From Verrucomicrobium spinosum DSM 4136 = JCM 18804 (lineage in GTDB: Bacteria > Verrucomicrobiota > Verrucomicrobiia > Verrucomicrobiales > Verrucomicrobiaceae), in contig NZ_ABIZ01000001.1 of assembly GCF_000172155.1 (NCBI RefSeq), positions 5,737,105 through 5,801,104 of the forward strand: a DNA stretch of 64,000 nucleotides. Direction: 5' to 3'. How positions within the stretch are numbered: position 1 is the stretch's first letter; the number at the start of each line of letters is the position of its first letter. Shown here one piece after another: positions 48,321-57,535 of this stretch. The position numbers and the translations under genes are program-made. The notes under the pieces were generated by a model. The model had not been told where the DNA came from. It worked only from the letters and a program-made list of their open reading frames with translations, and did not search any database.

Positions 48321-48480
48321 ACTGACGCACTGACGCACTGACGCACTGACGCACTGACGCACTGACGCACTGACGCACTGACGCACTGACGCACTGACGC
48401 ACTGACGCACTGACGCACTGACGCACTGACGCACTGACTTACCGCTTTACTGGATCACTGCTTCACCGGCTTACCGTCCA
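48321..48480. repeat. 8-bp tandem repeat array running into a gene's 3' end
   Basis: Fourteen perfect copies of ACTGACGC (48321-48432) are followed by six degenerate units in the same 8-bp register: ACTGACTT, ACCGCTTT, ACTGGATC, ACTGCTTC, ACCGGCTT, ACCGTCCA (48433-48480). The consensus of the degenerate part is ACYGNNTY. The last units lie inside the coding end of the peroxiredoxin gene (stop at 48455-48457). No spacers, so not CRISPR. Confidence 0.95.
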
Positions 48481-49009
48481 TCTGAACCACCTTCAGCACA
48501 TCCGCCGCCTGTTCAACGGTAGAAGCCTTGGCGTCATGCCAGATGACTTTGCCATCCTTGACCAAGAACGCCTGACGTGTGGCCAAGCCCACCAGAGGAA
48601 TTTTTTTCACGCCAAACTCCGTCAGAATCTTCCCGTCTGGATCCGCCAGCAGGGTGAAGGGGAGATTGTATTTCTTCTCAAACTTCTTCTGCGCCTCGAC
48701 GCCATCCGTGCTGACACCCACGACCTGGATGCCGGCCTTGGTGAGATCTGTGTAGGCATCCCGCAGACTGCAGGCTTGCGCCGTGCAGCCCGGGGTGTCG
48801 GCTTTGGGGTAAAAATAGACGAGCGTCAGCCCCTTGGAATAGAGATCCTCAAGTTTGACGGTTTTGCCGTTCTGGTCCTGGGCCTCCACCTTGGGAGCGT
48901 CGTAGGGAGCAACGAGTTTGCCATCGCTGGCGTGCGTAAAGAGGCTGGAGAAAAGTCCCATGGCAACAATCAGGGGGATGAGGAACTGGAGGGGCTTCTT
49001 GAATTTCAT
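48455..49009 (-). CDS. Exported PrxQ/BCP-type peroxiredoxin
   Basis: About 184 residues from ATG 49009, which has AGG a few bases upstream and opens a signal peptide (MKFKKPLQFLIPLIVAMGLF..., cleavage near HAS-DG). The frame reaches back to 49048 but those residues are not leader-like. Thioredoxin-fold peroxiredoxin: FYPKADTPGCTAQACSLRDA holds the peroxidatic Cys and, five residues on, the second Cys, the atypical 2-Cys arrangement of BCP/PrxQ. It would reduce hydroperoxides in the periplasm. A close homologue lies next door (49156-49683). The last codons (GKPVKQ-stop) are encoded by units of the 8-bp repeat array. Confidence 0.9.
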   Translation of the reverse strand: MKFKKPLQFLIPLIVAMGLFSSLFTHASDGKLVAPYDAPKVEAQDQNGKTVKLEDLYSKGLTLVYFYPKADTPGCTAQACSLRDAYTDLTKAGIQVVGVSTDGVEAQKKFEKKYNLPFTLLADPDGKILTEFGVKKIPLVGLATRQAFLVKDGKVIWHDAKASTVEQAADVLKVVQMDGKPVKQ

Positions 49010-49101
49010 GACCTGAGACGGGGAAAAAAGTTCGGCGTGGTCAGCCATGTTACGCGCCTCAAATGCAAACTGGATTCATTTGCTGCATTTACCGGCAAAA
49101 C

Positions 49102-49134
49102 AAAAACCCCGCATCCCTTACCGGAACACGGGGG
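49102..49134 (-). terminator. Terminator of the second peroxiredoxin gene
   Basis: Stem CCCCG (49107-49111) / CGGGG (49129-49133), followed on the minus strand by U5 (A-run 49102-49106) and further U-rich sequence. Confidence 0.65.
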
Positions 49135-49155
49135 CAAAAGGTCACCTGGTGGGGC

Positions 49156-49683
49156 TTACTTGGCCTCTTCCACCGCTTTAAGCGCGTCTTCCGCCTGCTT
49201 TTCAGTGGCGGCAGCAGGGTCGTGCCAGACCACTTTACCCTCCTTTACGAGGAAGGCTTCACGGGAAGCCATGCCGTTGGGGCGCTTGGCGACCTTGAAG
49301 GCATCAATGACCTTGCCATCCTTGTCTGCGATCAACTGGAAGGGGAAGGTGTATTTCTCAGAGAAGGCTTTCTGGGCTTCCACGGTGTCCGCGCTCACGC
49401 CGACGATCTTGACGCCTTTCTTGGCCAGTTCGGCATTGCCGTCGCGAAGGCTACAGCCCTGCTTCGTGCAGCCCGGGGTGTCAGCTTTGGGGTAGAAGTA
49501 CACGAGCACAAACTTGTTGTCCTTGTACAGGTCAGCAAATTTGACGACCTTGCCCGTCTGGTCGGTGCCTTCGATGGCGGGAGCGGCGTAGGGAGGATCA
49601 ACTTTCACAGCTTTGGGTCCGGCGATGACGCTGGCAGCAGCCAGCAGGGTAAGGGAGAAAACGGCGGCGATGGATTTCTTCAT
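49156..49683 (-). CDS. Exported PrxQ/BCP-type peroxiredoxin (paralogue)
   Basis: 175 residues from ATG 49683. This start gives a signal peptide (MKKSIAAVFSLTLLAAASVI, cleavage near IAG-PK); a longer frame to 49854 adds residues that do not look translated. FYPKADTPGCTKQGCSLRDG holds the peroxidatic Cys and the second Cys five residues later; EAFLVKEGKVVWHDPAAAT closes the fold. It is the same length class and organisation as the neighbour at 48455-49009, a tandem duplication. Its own terminator follows at 49102-49134. Role: removal of peroxides in the periplasm, with a thiol donor still to be found. Confidence 0.92.
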   Translation of the reverse strand: MKKSIAAVFSLTLLAAASVIAGPKAVKVDPPYAAPAIEGTDQTGKVVKFADLYKDNKFVLVYFYPKADTPGCTKQGCSLRDGNAELAKKGVKIVGVSADTVEAQKAFSEKYTFPFQLIADKDGKVIDAFKVAKRPNGMASREAFLVKEGKVVWHDPAAATEKQAEDALKAVEEAK

Positions 49684-49859
49684 GGCGGGAGCAAAACGCG
49701 AAAGCGCCCGGGAGTCTAGCAAGAATGGGGGCGGAGTCCCCAGATCGCCAACATTCACGCTGTCGGGGCTGGCCCATGAGCGCCACGGGTCCAAAAATTC
49801 TCCTCCCGCAGCCCCAACCTGAGGTATAGGAACGTCCCTTCCCTGCTTCCACACCCTTC

Positions 49860-50827: not shown

Positions 50828-53824
50828 TTACTTGAACATCGGATCTTCCTTGTTCCCCTTGCTCAGCAAGTAGGCGAGCAGGTCGAGGATGTCGTTTTGA
50901 TTCAGGGTGCTGAGGAGGCCCGGCGGCATCATGGACACCTTGGACTGATCCATGCTCTTGATCAGCTTCCGATCGACCCGCTGGAGTGCATTGGGGTCCA
51001 TCATATTGATGTTCAGCGTGATGGTATCACCCGCCAGGTTCATGATCCGACCGTACACCTTGCTGTCGTCATTGAGCGTGACTTCAAGCTGGCCATACTG
51101 ATCGCTGATTTCCTTGCTGGGCTCAATGATGTGCACGAGTAGATCCCGTGGGCTGTACTTGCCCGCTACGCTGGTGAGATCCGGCCCGATGGCACCGCCC
51201 TCCTGACCAAAACGGTGACAGGCAAAGCAGGTGGCCTGGCCAAACATGTTGCGGCCATTTACGAAGTTGCGGCCGCCTTCGAGACCGGCTCCGAGCAGGC
51301 CTTCAATGTCTTCCACCGTGTAGTTTTTCACGAAGGACTTGAGAGTGAAGGTGAACTGCGGAGCCTTCACATCCGGCTTGGCCTCCAGGATGGGCTTGAG
51401 CGCCACCTTCTCTGCCTCTGTGAGCCCCGCCTCGGCATCCTTGCGGATGTCCTGCATGAAGAGGTCAAAGCTCGCGCCACCTTTGAAGGTAGGAGCGCGA
51501 AGGCACACCCACTTGAAGAAGCGCTCGCGCAGTTCCGGAGTCCAGCCAGCTTTGGCGAATCGCAGGCTCTGAGCCAGCGCAATCTGCTCTTCCTGGGTCG
51601 GGGCATTTTCCAGGATCGGGATGGCCTTGGCCACAAAGGCATGGTCTCCCAGGAACGTCAGCACATTCACGAGGTCCACATCCAGCCAGGGTTCACTGGT
51701 CGGAAAGATGGAAGACAGACGGCCAATGGCCTTCTTACGAACGCCGTCCGCCGGCTCCCCAAAGCGGGAGAAAGCCAGCATGTTTACCCGCACGTAGAGC
51801 TCCCGGTCAGTCCCTTTGAGATCGGCAAACTTGATGCGCTCCAGCGCATTCATCACCGGCTCATAGAAAGCCCTGTCTCCATTGGAAGCACGAGTCAGCG
51901 CCATGAGCGCCATCAGCGAGGCACGGGGGGACGTTTCAGCCAGGGCCTTGTCCTTCCAGGTGGCCAGGGGTTGATGCTCCACCGCAATGCGGGCGGCAAA
52001 GCGGATGAGACGGTCAGGATGACCGAGCTGCGGCCAGGCAGCTGCCAGCGCCCCGGGGTCCGCATTGCCATGGAAGGCTTCCAGACTGCGGCGCAGTTCG
52101 TGAAGTTGTTTCTCCTCGCCCTGAAGCGTCAGCGGTGCAGGAGCAGTGCTTTCCTTGCCCGTGTACGTGACCCGGTAGAGACCGCTCTGCACACGACGAC
52201 CACCGATGGTGATGTAGAGTGCGCCATCCTTTGGAGAGACTGCCAGGTCCGTGAGCGGCAGCGGATTGGCACTCATGAACTCCTCGAACTCCGCCTTGTA
52301 CCCGGCACCCTCGGGCTTCATGTGCACGGCGTAGAGTTTGCCATAGCTCCAGTCAGAGATGAAGAACGCCTCCTGGTATTTCGCCGGGAACTTCGCGCCA
52401 TACCCGAAAGCCACCCCTGTGGGTGAACCAGGGCCGATGTCTGTGACGGGCGGAAGGCTGTCCTCCCAGCGCACCGGCCACTTCTTCGAAAGGGACCGCC
52501 AGCCAAACTCGCCACCGCTCTGCACCATGCACACGCGAGTGGGCCGGTACCAGGGCACGCTGAAGTCCCACTCCATGTCCGCGTCATAGGTGAAAAGATC
52601 CCCCTGGCGGTTAAAGGCTGCGTCGTACTCGTTGCGGAAGCCGGTGGTGATCAATTCCCACGTCTTGCCATCGGGATCCGTCTTGGCGACCCAGCCACCC
52701 GGCGCCATGACATCCCGCATGAAGCCACGCCCGACAAGAGGCGGCAGCAGCACATCCTCCGCCCAATGCCGGGGCACCCGGCTGCTGTCCATCTCAGTGA
52801 GAGGTGTCTGATTGCCCACCACGCAATAGAGAGATTTGCCATCCGGTCCCAACACCACAGCGTGAGGACCATGTTCACCGCCCTTGTTGGGGAAGGCACG
52901 CAACTGCTCCACCTTGTCGAACTTGTCGTCTTTGTCCGTGTCACTGATCCGGTAGAGTCCACGGGGAAACTTGTCGGAGTTTGTGATGGCATAGAGGTGG
53001 CCGAAGGCAAACAGCAGCCCTTGGGCCTCGCCGATCTCCACAGCGATTTCCTCGATCTTCGTGTCCTCCGGTTTGCCATCCAACGCTGGAGGCGTTACGC
53101 GATAGAGCTTGCCATACTGGTCGCTCACAATGAGGCGGCCCTTGTCGTCGAAAGTGTTAGCCACCCAGGAGCCCTGAGTTTTCAGCGGCACGCTGTAGAG
53201 GAGTTCTGCCTTGAAGCCCTCCTTGAGCTTGATGTCCTTCACCGCCGTGGCTTCCGGCTCCTTCAGGTTGGCAGCCGCGGCAAGGCTCTTTTCATTGAGA
53301 TTGGCCCAGGATCCGCCTCCCAACGGGGCGAGCGCAATCGCAGGCTTCCAGTCTTTGTCGTCAAATTTTACCTGTTCCCATCCTGCAGGGGCGGTCTCAC
53401 TGGCCTTCCATGAGGCATCCGTGACGATCTCGGTCTGTCCTTTGTTGCGGGTCTCGATGATGAGCTTCACCAGCACCGCACCTTTGTTCCCGCCGCGGTT
53501 GGTTCCAGTGACCGCCAGCACGTTTTGCCCCTTGACCACGGCGTCACTGACTTCCTTGACCTGGACCTTGTCCCATCCCTGGCCCGTGAGCACCGGTTTG
53601 CCATTGAGCAGAACGGTCAGTTCATCATCTCCGGTCGCCTGTAGGCGAACGGCATCACTCTGCTGGACATTAAACGTTTTGCGGAGATACACCGTCTGGT
53701 TGGGTTTCGCCTCAGCGGCGGACCAGATCCACTGCGGCGTCTCTGCAAGCGCCGTAAAGGCGGCGAGACTGAGAGCTGCCGTGGCGGCGAGGGGAACGGT
53801 GATGCGTCGGTAGAGAGAAGGCAT
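50828..53824 (-). CDS. PVC-type membrane dehydrogenase with cytochrome c haem domain
   Basis: 998 residues. Signal peptide 1-28 (cleavage near ALA-ETP). Residues about 30-170: beta-sandwich of the WIWSAAEAKPNQTVYLRKTF type. Residues about 190-570: six-bladed propeller resembling glucose/sorbosone dehydrogenases (TIGR02604-like 'putative membrane-bound dehydrogenase' of Pirellula/Verrucomicrobium). Residues about 600-830: helical HEAT-like. The C-terminal haem domain (TIGR02603-like) has CFACH at about 864-868, then GPDLTSVAGKYSPRDLLVHI and the distal Met region KVSMMPPGLLSTLNQND. By family it oxidises a sugar or other polyol and passes electrons to c-type haem; true substrate unknown. Typical of PVC bacteria, which carry many paralogues for degrading complex polysaccharides. 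Monocistronic; convergent with the permease gene. Confidence 0.9.
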   Translation of the reverse strand: MPSLYRRITVPLAATAALSLAAFTALAETPQWIWSAAEAKPNQTVYLRKTFNVQQSDAVRLQATGDDELTVLLNGKPVLTGQGWDKVQVKEVSDAVVKGQNVLAVTGTNRGGNKGAVLVKLIIETRNKGQTEIVTDASWKASETAPAGWEQVKFDDKDWKPAIALAPLGGGSWANLNEKSLAAAANLKEPEATAVKDIKLKEGFKAELLYSVPLKTQGSWVANTFDDKGRLIVSDQYGKLYRVTPPALDGKPEDTKIEEIAVEIGEAQGLLFAFGHLYAITNSDKFPRGLYRISDTDKDDKFDKVEQLRAFPNKGGEHGPHAVVLGPDGKSLYCVVGNQTPLTEMDSSRVPRHWAEDVLLPPLVGRGFMRDVMAPGGWVAKTDPDGKTWELITTGFRNEYDAAFNRQGDLFTYDADMEWDFSVPWYRPTRVCMVQSGGEFGWRSLSKKWPVRWEDSLPPVTDIGPGSPTGVAFGYGAKFPAKYQEAFFISDWSYGKLYAVHMKPEGAGYKAEFEEFMSANPLPLTDLAVSPKDGALYITIGGRRVQSGLYRVTYTGKESTAPAPLTLQGEEKQLHELRRSLEAFHGNADPGALAAAWPQLGHPDRLIRFAARIAVEHQPLATWKDKALAETSPRASLMALMALTRASNGDRAFYEPVMNALERIKFADLKGTDRELYVRVNMLAFSRFGEPADGVRKKAIGRLSSIFPTSEPWLDVDLVNVLTFLGDHAFVAKAIPILENAPTQEEQIALAQSLRFAKAGWTPELRERFFKWVCLRAPTFKGGASFDLFMQDIRKDAEAGLTEAEKVALKPILEAKPDVKAPQFTFTLKSFVKNYTVEDIEGLLGAGLEGGRNFVNGRNMFGQATCFACHRFGQEGGAIGPDLTSVAGKYSPRDLLVHIIEPSKEISDQYGQLEVTLNDDSKVYGRIMNLAGDTITLNINMMDPNALQRVDRKLIKSMDQSKVSMMPPGLLSTLNQNDILDLLAYLLSKGNKEDPMFK

Positions 53825-54019: not shown

Positions 54020-54067
54020 ACCGATATACTGATCTACTGGTTTACCGGACCACTGCGTTACCGAAAT
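54020..54067. repeat. Degenerate 8-bp repeat array (second locus)
   Basis: Six consecutive units in 8-bp register: ACCGATAT, ACTGATCT, ACTGGTTT, ACCGGACC, ACTGCGTT, ACCGAAAT, fitting ACYGNNNN with pyrimidine-rich ends. It lies upstream of the DUF1003 gene; an upstream alternative ATG (54066) falls inside the last unit. Confidence 0.75.
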
Positions 54068-54161
54068 GCACTCGCACCCTCCTCCGCACAGGAACTCTCA
54101 CGGCCCCACGGGGGTCTGTCAGGCCACCCAGAAAAAAGTACCTCACGCGGAGCTCGTTCCC

Positions 54162-54848
54162 ATGGGAGCCCTCCGGCCATTAATTGCCAGCAGGATCTCC
54201 GCCCAGTATCCGAACCTGCAATCGAGCTCGCTCATCTCTCATGAGGTGCTGAATGCAGCTCGGCTGGACTACGTGAGGTCCGCGCTGGAGGACCAGTTGG
54301 GCGAGCTGACGCACCTGGACGAGGAGGTGGTGGAAAGTCTGCACAAGCATGAGGTGCTGAGCGCACGTCCTCTGGATGACCCAGAGGACAAAGAGTCCAG
54401 CTTTGGCGCACGGGTGGCGGACAAGATTGCCAGCTTTGGCGGGAGTTGGACGTTCATCCTCACCTTTGGTGGGTTTCTCGTACTCTGGATCGCCGTCAAC
54501 GTCTGGTTCCTGGCATCTCGGGCGTTTGATCCCTACCCCTTCATTTTGCTGAATTTGATCCTCTCCTGTCTGGCAGCCATGCAGGCCCCCGTCATCATGA
54601 TGAGCCAGAACCGGCAAGAGACCCGGGACCGGAGGAGGGCGGAGAATGACTACAAGATCAACCTCAAGTCCGAGCTGGAAATTCGCCATCTGCACGAGAA
54701 AGTGGACTACCTCCTGCACCAGCAGGCCACTCGCCTGCTGGAGATCCAGGAGATCCAGCTCGACCTCATGCGGGAGCTGGCCAATCAAGGAAAAAGTGAT
54801 GCAGGGACGCGGTCGGCTCGAAAAGGTGACGAGACTAATCACGTTTAG
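54162..54848 (+). CDS. DUF1003 family membrane protein
   Basis: 228 residues from ATG 54162; an ATG at 54066 lies in repeat DNA and its extension (MHSHPPPHRNSHG...) is not protein-like. An N-terminal soluble segment (about 1-75) precedes the DUF1003 core: SFGGSWTFILTFGGFLVLWI as helix 1, PYPFILLNLILSCLAAMQAP as helix 2 and the hallmark IMMSQNRQETRDRRRAENDY. The C-terminal part is a charged amphipathic helix or coiled coil (ELEIRHLHEKVDYLLHQQAT). The family occurs widely and has no known biochemical role. A terminator follows at 54901-54924. Confidence 0.88.
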   Translation: MGALRPLIASRISAQYPNLQSSSLISHEVLNAARLDYVRSALEDQLGELTHLDEEVVESLHKHEVLSARPLDDPEDKESSFGARVADKIASFGGSWTFILTFGGFLVLWIAVNVWFLASRAFDPYPFILLNLILSCLAAMQAPVIMMSQNRQETRDRRRAENDYKINLKSELEIRHLHEKVDYLLHQQATRLLEIQEIQLDLMRELANQGKSDAGTRSARKGDETNHV

Positions 54849-54900
54849 GATCCTCCCGGCTCTCCCCCGGCCAAGGTGGCCGATTTTTCACTATTGCTCG

Positions 54901-54924
54901 ACTGTCCGTGGACAGTTCTTTTTC
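54901..54924 (+). terminator. Terminator of the DUF1003 gene
   Basis: Stem ACTGTC (54901-54906) / GACAGT (54911-54916), loop CGTG, then TTCTTTTTC. It overlaps the alternative GTG start (54908) of the next frame, supporting the later start at 54962 for that gene. Confidence 0.65.
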
Positions 54925-54961: not shown

Positions 54962-57535
54962 ATGATGCCCTCCGTGCTTCGCCGGCTGCTGCCGGTCCTT
55001 TTCCCGTTCCTGTATCTTTCCTGCCTGGCCCTGCCGAAATCCATCCTTGCCCAGGACCAACCCGCTACGGAGGATGACATCCCCATCCCCCGCGCTGACA
55101 TCAAGCTGGCCCATACCACGACCTCGGCCCGGTTGTATGAACCAGACGAGCGCCCCCCGGTGGCGGTCATGGTCTTCGGGTCCGGAGATGGAGGATGGTC
55201 AGCATGGGAAGATGCCGTGAGTCACTGGCTCCGGGATGCCGGAGTCTATGTCATCGGGCTGGATCTGCGCGAGTATGCAGCCAAAGACTACACGGCGGAG
55301 CTGTTGGGCCGGGACATGGCCACCCTCGCAGCCGAGGCCGCCAGCCGGGGCGGTGGCGATGACAGCACGCCAGTTATCTATGCAGGCTGGAGCATGGGGG
55401 CGGTGCAAGCGGTACCGGCAGCAGCATGGAAGGAACGCCCCGCCGCGCTCAAGGGCATCATCATGCTCAGTGCCGACAGCCGGGGGCGCTTTGGCCTCAG
55501 AGCCTCTGATGAACTCGGCGTCACCCCCACCGGTCCTGGCACCTTCAGTCTGGGTGACTTTACTCCTGCGATGGCGGGCCTGCGGGTCGCGCAGTTCCAT
55601 GGAGGCGCGGATTTCATGGCCTCCACTGCCTGGATCCAGAGCTTGAAGACGCCTCATGAACTCTACGTGATCGGCGGCGCCAACCACGGCTTTGACGGGC
55701 CGGCCGACGAGTTTGCGGAGGATCTTCTGCGCGGTGTTCATTGGGTGTTGGGGGATGACAGCGCGGCGGCACCACCGCCGGAAGGCGAACTCCCCTTCGG
55801 CCTCTCCCCCCTCTGGCCAGTAGCCGCCCTGGCCATCGGCCTCTCCATCTTTTTCCTCGTCTCCAAGAAACACTCCATCGCCGTGCTGGCATGGGCCGTC
55901 ACGCTCATGGGGCTGGTGGACCTGCTGGAAGCGCTTTTTCAAAAGCCGCCGACCGTACTGGCCTGGATGGAGCAATGGGTACCCCTAGGGGTGACGGAAA
56001 AAAGCCGACTGCTGCTGCTGCTCTCCGGCCTGGCCCTTCTCTCCCTTGCACGCGGTTTGCGCAGGCGGAAGCATCTGGCCTGGCTCCTCGTGCTCGTACT
56101 GCTTAGCGTGTCCGTGGTGCTGCATTTGTCCCGGGCATTCGACTGGCACCACGCCCTGGCCGCTGCCGTGCTGCTCATCCCCCTGGTCAGGTGGAGGCAG
56201 CAGTTTGTGGCGAGGTCAGACGCGCCGTCGGTTCGCATCGCCGGACTGGTGGCCTTTTCACTGGCGTTTGGCCTCATGATTTATGGCACCGTGGGCATCC
56301 GGCAGTACAGTGAGTCCGGCAAGGTCGGAGCAGCGCTCTCATGGGCAGACTGTCTCCACGGGGCTGGCGCGGCGGTGTTCATGCAAAAGTCGGAGTTGGA
56401 CCATGACGGTGGCCGGGAGGTGCGGGGCTTCCTCGCCACACTCCGCACCGGCAGCTTACTTAGCTCCATGCTGGTACTGGCCCTGCTGCTGCGCCCCGTA
56501 CTGGCCAAGCGCCATCCGGAGGCCACCGACGATGAACGCGAGCGCATGACAAAGATCATCGCCGAGTACGGTCGGGACCCAATGGACAACTTCGCCCTGC
56601 TGCCCGACAAGCGCTGCTTCTTCACGAAGGATGGCAAAGGGCTGGTCACCTATGCCCTGTGGCGAAAATATGCCGTGGCCCTGGCAGATCCCATCTGTCC
56701 GCCGGAAGGGCGCGCCGCAGCCGTGGCGGAGTTCCGCGCCTTCTGCCGCAACCAGGACTGGCAGCCCATCTTCTACTGCGTGCACGTCTCGAACCGCCCC
56801 CTTTACGAGGAGGAGGATTTCGTCACCTTCAAGGTGGGTGAAGACGCCCGCCTGGATGTCGCGGAGTTCAAACTGGAGGGTGGAAAGTTCCAAAATCTGC
56901 GCACCGCCCGCAACAAGGCACGCAAAGGCGGCCTCACTTTCCAGTGGTATGACGGTACACCCCACACCGATCACGGGCTTGAGGCCCAGCTCACGCTGAT
57001 CTCCCAGGAATGGCTGGCCCACAAGCACGGCGGAGAGATGACCTTCGACCTCGGGGCCTTCAGCATCGACAGCATTCGCAAACACGGCGTGGCGATCGTG
57101 CGCAACCCAGAGGGCCGGATCGAAACTTTTGCCACATGGCTCCCCTACCATCAGGGCAAGGGACGCTGCCTGGATCTCATGCGCGGGCGCGCGGAGGCGC
57201 GGGATGTGCTGGACTTCCTCATTGTGGAGGCCATCGACCATTTCAAGGCGCAAGGAGTCCAGGAGGTCAGCCTCGGGAATGCCCCACTCGCGAACGTCAA
57301 TGCCGGTGACGGGCAGGCCCTGGAGTGTCGCAAGGAACGCGCCGTGCAGTTTCTCTTCGACAACTTTGACAAGTTCTACGGCTACAAAAGCCTGTTCAAC
57401 TTCAAGAAGAAGTACCAGCCAGAATGGCAGGGCCGCTACATCGCCTATCCGCCGGGCGTAGGACTGGCCATGGCAGGACTTGCCATCGCAGGGGTACACT
57501 TGCCTAAAGGGTTCATGGGGCTGGTCAGGTCCTAG
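54962..57535 (+). CDS. VirJ/AcvB-like hydrolase fused to MprF/LpiA-type phosphatidylglycerol lysyltransferase
   Basis: 857 residues from ATG 54962, which opens a signal peptide (PSVLRRLLPVLFPFLYLSCL, cleavage near LAQ-DQ); the earlier GTG 54908 falls in a terminator. Residues about 30-260: alpha/beta hydrolase of the VirJ/AcvB type: GSGDGGWSAWE, nucleophile Ser144 in AGWSMGAVQ, His242 in GGANHGFDGP. Residues about 280-520: some six or seven membrane helices. Residues about 535-850: DUF2156/MprF synthase domain, with YGRDPMDNFALLPDKRCFFT, LDLMRGRAEARDVLDFLIVE, LGNAPLANV and FNFKKKYQPEWQGRYIAYP, all MprF hallmarks. MprF/LpiA transfers lysine from Lys-tRNA to phosphatidylglycerol, making the surface less negative. 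In Agrobacterium, AcvB is reported to hydrolyse lysyl-PG and is encoded beside lpiA. Here one polypeptide would hold both. The hydrolase would face the periplasm, the synthase the cytoplasm. Confidence 0.88.
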   Translation: MMPSVLRRLLPVLFPFLYLSCLALPKSILAQDQPATEDDIPIPRADIKLAHTTTSARLYEPDERPPVAVMVFGSGDGGWSAWEDAVSHWLRDAGVYVIGLDLREYAAKDYTAELLGRDMATLAAEAASRGGGDDSTPVIYAGWSMGAVQAVPAAAWKERPAALKGIIMLSADSRGRFGLRASDELGVTPTGPGTFSLGDFTPAMAGLRVAQFHGGADFMASTAWIQSLKTPHELYVIGGANHGFDGPADEFAEDLLRGVHWVLGDDSAAAPPPEGELPFGLSPLWPVAALAIGLSIFFLVSKKHSIAVLAWAVTLMGLVDLLEALFQKPPTVLAWMEQWVPLGVTEKSRLLLLLSGLALLSLARGLRRRKHLAWLLVLVLLSVSVVLHLSRAFDWHHALAAAVLLIPLVRWRQQFVARSDAPSVRIAGLVAFSLAFGLMIYGTVGIRQYSESGKVGAALSWADCLHGAGAAVFMQKSELDHDGGREVRGFLATLRTGSLLSSMLVLALLLRPVLAKRHPEATDDERERMTKIIAEYGRDPMDNFALLPDKRCFFTKDGKGLVTYALWRKYAVALADPICPPEGRAAAVAEFRAFCRNQDWQPIFYCVHVSNRPLYEEEDFVTFKVGEDARLDVAEFKLEGGKFQNLRTARNKARKGGLTFQWYDGTPHTDHGLEAQLTLISQEWLAHKHGGEMTFDLGAFSIDSIRKHGVAIVRNPEGRIETFATWLPYHQGKGRCLDLMRGRAEARDVLDFLIVEAIDHFKAQGVQEVSLGNAPLANVNAGDGQALECRKERAVQFLFDNFDKFYGYKSLFNFKKKYQPEWQGRYIAYPPGVGLAMAGLAIAGVHLPKGFMGLVRS

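Follow-up and report, generated by a model that had tools for sequence, protein, structure and literature searches.

A hydrolase of the VirJ/AcvB type joined to an MprF-type synthase without the flippase region in one protein of Verrucomicrobium spinosum

Why should a lipid-aminoacylating enzyme of the MprF type and a hydrolase of the kind that undoes its work be joined in one polypeptide? The question is raised by a gene of Verrucomicrobium spinosum DSM 4136, which lies in the 64,000-nucleotide stretch of DNA analyzed here (the window; positions 5,737,105 to 5,801,104 of contig NZ_ABIZ01000001.1). The original prediction took its product for a self-contained on/off unit of lipid charge, with a VirJ/AcvB-like hydrolase outside the membrane, an MprF/LpiA synthase inside, and lysyl-phosphatidylglycerol (Lys-PG) as the model substrate. 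Our analysis confirms the joining of the two domains in a protein that lacks the flippase subdomain of MprF. The parts of the fusion protein are as follows, in window coordinates (TM, transmembrane helix):

54962..57535, plus strand: the whole fusion protein of 857 amino acids (aa), consisting of hydrolase, seven predicted membrane helices and aminoacyl-lipid synthase (stop-free translation)
54962..55051, plus strand: predicted signal peptide, residues 1-30, with RR and a hydrophobic stretch at 12-30 (hydropathy)
55082..55786, plus strand: VirJ/AcvB-type alpha/beta-hydrolase domain, residues 41-275, with the Pfam match at 69-191 (PF06057, AcvB structures 9xhm/9xhn, AlphaFold2 model)
55805..55861, plus strand: linker helix TM1, residues 282-300, a predicted bridge from periplasm to cytoplasm (in 21/21 fusions; no counterpart in 4/4 short synthases encoded by split genes)
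55883..56506, plus strand: TM2-TM7, residues 308-515, corresponding to MprF/LpiA subdomain 2, TM9-14 in the numbering of PMC8131360 (NCBIfam, PDB alignment, hydropathy)
56552..57448, plus strand: predicted cytoplasmic aminoacyl-lipid synthase domain PF09924, residues 531-829 (Pfam, PDB matches)

Both enzyme domains match their Pfam families above the cut-off, which bears out the proposed joining of hydrolase and synthase through membrane helices. VirJ (PF06057) was found at residues 69-191 (E-value 2.2e-10, 41.1 bits; curated cut-off 22), inside the region of residues 30-260 where it had been expected, and LPG_synthase_C (PF09924) at residues 531-829 (E-value 1.6e-70, 238 bits). Hydrolase_4 (66-171) and the transmembrane family PF16995 (308-506) matched below their cut-offs. 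The genome contains only one PF06057 place at an E-value of 1e-3. The closest solved relatives by sequence are MprF/LpiA chains, which match residues 305-856 (best E-value 1.5e-52), and two AcvB chains, which match residues 69-200 of the full-length query (1.3e-4 and 5.4e-4); the hydrolase part alone matches the two-domain AcvB chain at 1.8e-6 (two stretches summed) and the catalytic domain at 1.4e-4. An AlphaFold2 model of residues 31-283 has the alpha/beta-hydrolase fold (predicted local distance difference test, pLDDT, 74.4; predicted template modeling score 0.81), and its neighbors in a fold search are of the esterase/lipase type, with Z scores up to 18.8 and a root-mean-square deviation of 3.5 over 208 residues.

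The residues of the hydrolase that can be compared with those of AcvB are:

55187..55189, plus strand: Asp76, equivalent of AcvB Asp271, kept (alignments)
55391..55393, plus strand: Ser144, the nucleophile, equivalent of AcvB Ser336 (alignments)
55403..55405, plus strand: Val148, at the position of AcvB Asp340; Glu in 12/12 non-fused relatives (alignments)
55487..55489, plus strand: Arg176, at the position of AcvB Asp370, which contacts the lysine side chain (alignments)
55610..55612, plus strand: Asp217, probable acid of the triad, its role assigned by position (the same in all 21 fusions and all 12 non-fused relatives)
55685..55687, plus strand: His242, the catalytic His, equivalent of AcvB His433 by position, the aligned AcvB fragment stopping before His433

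The original prediction had placed Ser144 in GWSMG and His242 in NHGFDG correctly. Neither residue varies among the 21 intact fusions or among 12 non-fused relatives with this type of hydrolase, and the same is true of Asp76 and Asp217. Ser74, the equivalent of AcvB Ser269, is present in 21/21 fusions; roles for Ser336, His433 and Ser269 in AcvB and VirJ are reported in PMC13197417 and PMC13135905. The non-fused rows comprise 4 from split genes and 10 from pairs with full-length MprF, a selection from which many further pairs in the order sample were left aside. The count of 12 excludes two AcvB-like rows (L018 and L065), which are treated apart. One fusion with a frame change (L036) was used only up to the break or for its hydrolase part and is absent from the residue tallies, tree and helix table.

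On the synthase side, six residues of Staphylococcus aureus MprF (SaMprF), K547, K621, E624, D731, R734 and K806, map by motif, spacing and PaMprF alignment to K550, K624, E627, D738, R741 and K815; a change in any of the six is reported to abolish Lys-PG synthesis (PMC2774229). Five are kept in 21/21 fusions, and K624 in 19/21, with Arg in the other 2. As a separate observation, fused or short synthases carry the motif EMxFD(L/M)(G/S) (25/25; window 57035-57055, plus strand) where full-length MprF has EKxFSLG (7/7), at what is by motif the position of SaMprF E685.

Intact open reading frames (ORFs) for the fusion occur in 21 distinct genomes, which together with the low ratios of nonsynonymous to synonymous substitution (dN/dS) given below rules out chance or an assembly artefact. 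In the order sample, 54 of 386 genomes match the fusion profile, 19 of them with an intact fusion, and 21 of 386 have separate hydrolase and synthase matches close by on one contig, some fragmentary. The phylum sample yielded matches in 27 of 387 genomes and two intact fusions from another class (G029 and G003). A contig scan, which reaches close relatives only, found 7 loci, all in Verrucomicrobium, Verrucomicrobia, Verrucomicrobiaceae or Phragmitibacter and none outside the Verrucomicrobiota; they include Verrucomicrobium sp. BvORR106 (93%), BvORR034, Phragmitibacter and other metagenome-assembled Verrucomicrobia. No plasmid-borne fusion was found, since none of the 131 matching plasmid records covers 80% of the query. 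Incomplete cases are few: in BvORR034 (G217) the two halves lie at the ends of two contigs, in G515 (L036/L050) the frame changes near the C-terminus, and in G507 the match spans 122 positions within a 153-aa frame. Compared with BvORR106, the hydrolase gives a dN/dS of 0.032, the linker and helices 0.028, the synthase 0.041 and the N-terminal 40 residues 0.28; these are rough values from one genome pair, with synonymous divergence near 1 in places. Low ratios over both halves suggest that neither enzyme is decaying.

The two enzymes are found in three arrangements: the fusion, a split pair, and a full-length MprF beside a separate hydrolase. In the split pair the hydrolase comes first, followed by a short synthase without flippase, and the genes overlap by ATGA in 4/4 loci, all from Verrucomicrobiota. 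Full-length MprF frames are mostly open for 850-980 codons, with the hydrolase on either side. A tree of 32 synthase rows separates the fused and short forms (25) from full-length MprF (7) with support of 100/100, and the split group forms one clade (98/98). The data neither favor nor refute monophyly of the fusions (AU test, p 0.249); 20% of 200 bootstrap trees keep them on one side.

Hydropathy places helices at residues 282-300, 308-326, 348-366, 372-390, 398-416, 426-444 and 497-515, in addition to the signal-like stretch at 12-30. The last six correspond to subdomain 2 of MprF, in keeping with the PaMprF alignment from residue 305. The same scan marks 455-473 and 827-845, which were taken as non-spanning. 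All seven helices were detected in 20 of the 21 fusions, one falling under the threshold in the remaining sequence (L004). Seven spans starting from a hydrolase outside bring the chain to its end inside, where aminoacyl-tRNA is, and the positive loops SKKHS, RRRKH and ARSDAPSVR fall on the predicted inside. The protein is thus predicted, from hydropathy alone for both topology and signal peptide, to be N-out/C-in, with a periplasmic hydrolase and a cytoplasmic synthase, which agrees with the orientation first proposed. Given the helix count and the positive loops, we do not favor an inverted orientation of the kind reported for LysX2 (PMC8974105).

When the four short synthases of the split pairs are translated from the ATG that shares bases with the hydrolase stop, they begin directly at the second helix, although earlier start codons exist in 3 of the 4, and hydropathy detected no C-terminal helix in the four partner hydrolases. 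Being present in the fusions and absent from the split pairs, the linker helix appears to be an addition that provides the extra crossing a working fusion needs. Loss of a stop codon alone is therefore insufficient as the origin of the fusion, as the split pairs read in this way have no linker helix to contribute.

The first MprF subdomain is missing. A search with PF03706, the family of the MprF flippase region, found nothing in the fusion protein up to an E-value of 1 and nothing at 1e-3 in the organism's own 8.22-Mb one-contig genome; the same family was matched in 11 of 14 control genomes. The NCBIfam model bifunc_MprF scores 374.8 bits, below its cut-off of 600, and its alignment begins at profile position 317. 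RtMprF is reported to have most of its lysyl-PG site in subdomain 1 (TM1-8), which flipping is said to require; next come subdomain 2 (TM9-14) and the synthase (PMC8131360). In the fusion, the predicted periplasmic hydrolase occupies the place of subdomain 1, so that the protein amounts to a truncated, flippase-less MprF to which one helix and a hydrolase have been added. A synthase with six TMs is reported to sustain full Lys-PG synthesis in S. aureus, with the lipid mostly in the inner leaflet (PMC2774229). PF03706 is also unmatched at 1e-3 in 8 of 20 fusion genomes, the present one included (G521 was left out of this set), and in 3 of 4 genomes with a split short pair.

As the flippase subdomain is absent, the aminoacyl-lipid is likely confined to the inner leaflet. 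Drawing on what is known of the two families for the activities, the lipid, the amino acid and the role in asymmetry, we propose a pair of opposing enzymes anchored in one membrane. The cytoplasmic synthase would make aminoacyl-lipid in the inner leaflet, some of which would leak slowly to the outer leaflet; there the periplasmic Ser144-Asp217-His242 esterase would cut the aminoacyl ester, keeping the outer leaflet free of aminoacyl-lipid and limiting its total. Seven helices, six from MprF subdomain 2 and the extra linker, would hold both enzymes. The protein would then serve as a keeper of membrane asymmetry or a limiter of lipid level, and not as a switch of surface charge; our confidence in this reading is evenly divided. 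Phosphatidylglycerol synthesis is plausible, given four CDP-alcohol phosphotransferase proteins in the genome. The pairing itself makes sense in view of the binding of LpiA by the AcvB catalytic domain, described below: a known contact would have become covalent. Two terms of the original prediction are not borne out. The unit is hardly self-contained without the flippase subdomain, given that most of the Lys-PG made by the similarly truncated S. aureus synthase is reported to stay in the inner leaflet (PMC2774229), and it is hardly an on/off unit, as Pfam revealed no sensor or switch domain in the protein and both enzymes are made together as one chain.

Several observations weigh against this proposal, beginning with the passage of the lipid across the membrane. 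PF03706 does match in 12 of the 20 fusion genomes, in 11 of them as an open frame of its own (320-434 aa) and in G003 inside a full-length MprF, making a flippase in trans possible there. Genuine MprF proteins can also score under the curated cut-off in this search (27.2 bits in G628, 26.8 in G243), yet both were detected. Transport could thus be intact, with the lipid reaching the outer leaflet by way of the six TMs as a weak scramblase, DedA-type proteins or separate PF03706 proteins; the hydrolase would trim it there, and the fusion would fix a 1:1 ratio. LpiA and AcvB have been proposed to act in this manner (PMC13197417), free MprF subdomain 1 is reported to support flipping in trans to some degree in S. 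aureus (PMC8131360), and the V. spinosum genome encodes two DedA/VTT proteins, which could be lipid movers. However, that genome has no PF03706 match, and subdomain 1 is reported to be indispensable to flipping (PMC8131360, PMC2774229). We consider intact transport unlikely, though still a serious contender.

The remaining objections concern the hydrolase and the means of studying it. The domain is only distantly related to AcvB (Pfam score of 41 bits), the full-length AlphaFold2 model is unusable (pLDDT 44.7), and no lipid data for V. spinosum were found in the literature. In AcvB, D271A is reported to cause strong, and D340A and D370A moderate, accumulation of Lys-PG; Asp271 and Asp340 are described as conserved among AcvB homologs, and Asp370 is linked to lysine specificity, with Thr or Ser in homologs from makers of Ala-PG (PMC13197417). 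Of these three acids only Asp271 is kept. The Asp340 position has V in 17, A in 2, G in 1 and T in 1 of the 21 fusions, whereas the non-fused relatives have E and the two AcvB-like proteins have D; the Asp370 position is Arg in 21/21 fusions, as it is in 12/12 non-fused relatives of this type, which bear the motif RGRYG. The position of Trp378 in the AcvB membrane loop is Glu in 16 fusions, L in 3 and K in 2. Trp is also missing from the 12 non-fused relatives, and its loss cannot be attributed to the tether. From the pocket, the amino acid is probably not lysine, which speaks against Lys-PG as the substrate, and the pocket changes may mean that aminoacyl-PG is not the substrate of the hydrolase. 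Since the effect of D340A in AcvB is moderate, loss of this acid leaves hydrolase activity possible.

The AcvB-like hydrolases mentioned above (L018 and L065) stand beside full-length MprF and, in contrast to the RGRYG type, have retained both the Trp-Leu loop and the equivalent of Asp340; two hydrolase types therefore coexist in the Verrucomicrobiota. A 662-aa frame (L021:1513-3498, minus strand), included in one alignment only, carries a VirJ domain at its C-terminal end; the nucleophile elbow is GRGLG, without Ser, and the protein is probably a dead relative.

Eight positions separate fused from non-fused hydrolases with no residue in common (89, 148, 171, 216, 220, 243, 245 and 247), and six of the eight are at most 5 residues from a member of the triad. 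Besides position 148 (V/A/G/T versus E), A/C/L replaces P at 171, A/S/T replaces the acid D at 220 (12/12 non-fused), and Gly (21/21) stands at 243 where the non-fused have D or F (an acid in 11/12). The losses at 220 and 243 count with the pocket changes above. Position 171 aligns with AcvB Leu365, which lies beside the glycerol in a docking model (PMC13197417). An acid was gained at 245 in 18 of 21 fusions (Asn in 3), and the total of acidic residues over the domain is not clearly different (21-33 in fusions, 20-31 in non-fused). With selection still purifying, this remodeling does not look like decay. It might instead indicate that the hydrolase is not a plain eraser but a transacylase that hands the aminoacyl group to an acceptor in the envelope, or that it serves to export the amino acid by setting it free. 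The triad and Asp76, which would bind the alpha-amino group, are nonetheless kept as in an aminoacyl-ester hydrolase, the pocket change fits a different amino acid equally well, and we know of no envelope acceptor; this explanation appears quite improbable.

It is very unlikely that the substrate of the hydrolase is some unrelated ester and that the fusion serves just anchoring or co-expression: the best fold matches listed are general esterases, thioesterases and monoglyceride lipases, AcvB is not among them (the library, with entries to 8 April 2026, may omit its structures) and Hydrolase_4 also scores, but the closest solved relatives by sequence are AcvB chains, and the same kind of hydrolase accompanies MprF-type synthases when fused, in split short pairs and beside full-length MprF. 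Highly speculative as well is a vectorial device without a classical flippase, in which a tRNA-charged amino acid would cross the membrane on the lipid and be transferred or released outside by the rebuilt site.

Directly upstream of the fusion gene lies a DUF1003 gene (PF06210; window 54066-54848, plus strand), a possible partner, which is also found upstream in 5 of the 17 loci searched (L031, L037, L002, L004 and L048; L033, one of the 17, contains only the far half of a fusion). Between the two genes are two hairpins with T-runs (window 54868-54917, plus strand) that may end the upstream transcript; such sites number 5 in the 4.1 kb scanned compared with a mean of 2.8 in shuffles, and chance is possible. 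Further upstream, the window contains two adjoining AhpC/TSA-like peroxiredoxin genes (48455-49764, minus strand), one recognized by Pfam and the other by sequence similarity, and a gene whose 998-aa product carries a cytochrome c domain at the C-terminus (50828-53824, minus strand).

Opposed enzymes of a related kind are known from fungi, where a DUF2156-type ergosteryl-aspartate synthase, ErdS, is countered by the alpha/beta-hydrolase ErdH; these are two eukaryotic proteins acting on a sterol acceptor. No report of a hydrolase-synthase fusion was found in the open-access literature, which misses most subscription journals. Both halves, and the pairing of LpiA with AcvB, are already known; the novelty lies in the variant that joins them, lacks the flippase and has a rebuilt pocket. 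An MprF-type synthase that lacks the flippase is itself familiar: MprF(-8) of S. aureus (PMC2774229) and MprF1 of C. perfringens (PMC11980842) consist, like the fusion, of a synthase and six C-terminal TMs, but as described there neither has a hydrolase attached, MprF(-8) being a laboratory construct and MprF1 naturally without the flippase domain. The VirJ protein of the Ti plasmid, unlike the fusion, is free-standing and is reported to act on lysyl-PG (PMC13135905). LysX (PMC2922099, PMC8974105) likewise joins an MprF-type synthase to an enzyme of the same pathway, lysyl-tRNA synthetase; its partner supplies the substrate, whereas the partner here is of the product-removing kind.

The nearest parallel is the LpiA-AcvB pair of Agrobacterium tumefaciens, whose binding was reported in 2026: the AcvB catalytic domain binds LpiA, and LpiA raises the membrane association of AcvB, although the authors call the in vivo consequences of this coupling elusive (PMC13197417). 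As in the topology predicted for the fusion, the pair has its MprF-type synthase in the cytoplasm and its VirJ/AcvB-type hydrolase in the periplasm; it shares with the fusion the equivalents of Ser, His and Asp271 and the physical association of the two enzymes. Unlike the fusion, it comprises two proteins with a full flippase, an additional N-terminal domain in AcvB, a pocket with Asp340 and Asp370 and a Trp-Leu membrane loop. The fusion is a single tethered chain without the flippase subdomain, with Val148 and Arg176 in the pocket and mostly Glu at the Trp position. It offers an MprF-type synthase without flippase together with an altered-pocket hydrolase on which amino-acid specificity can be mapped. 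As a single gene open to single-residue changes, it allows a test of which leaflet hosts each reaction, and is a natural test of how membrane charge is controlled on each side. In this protein, evolution would have made a contact like that of LpiA and AcvB permanent, and would have done so without the flippase.

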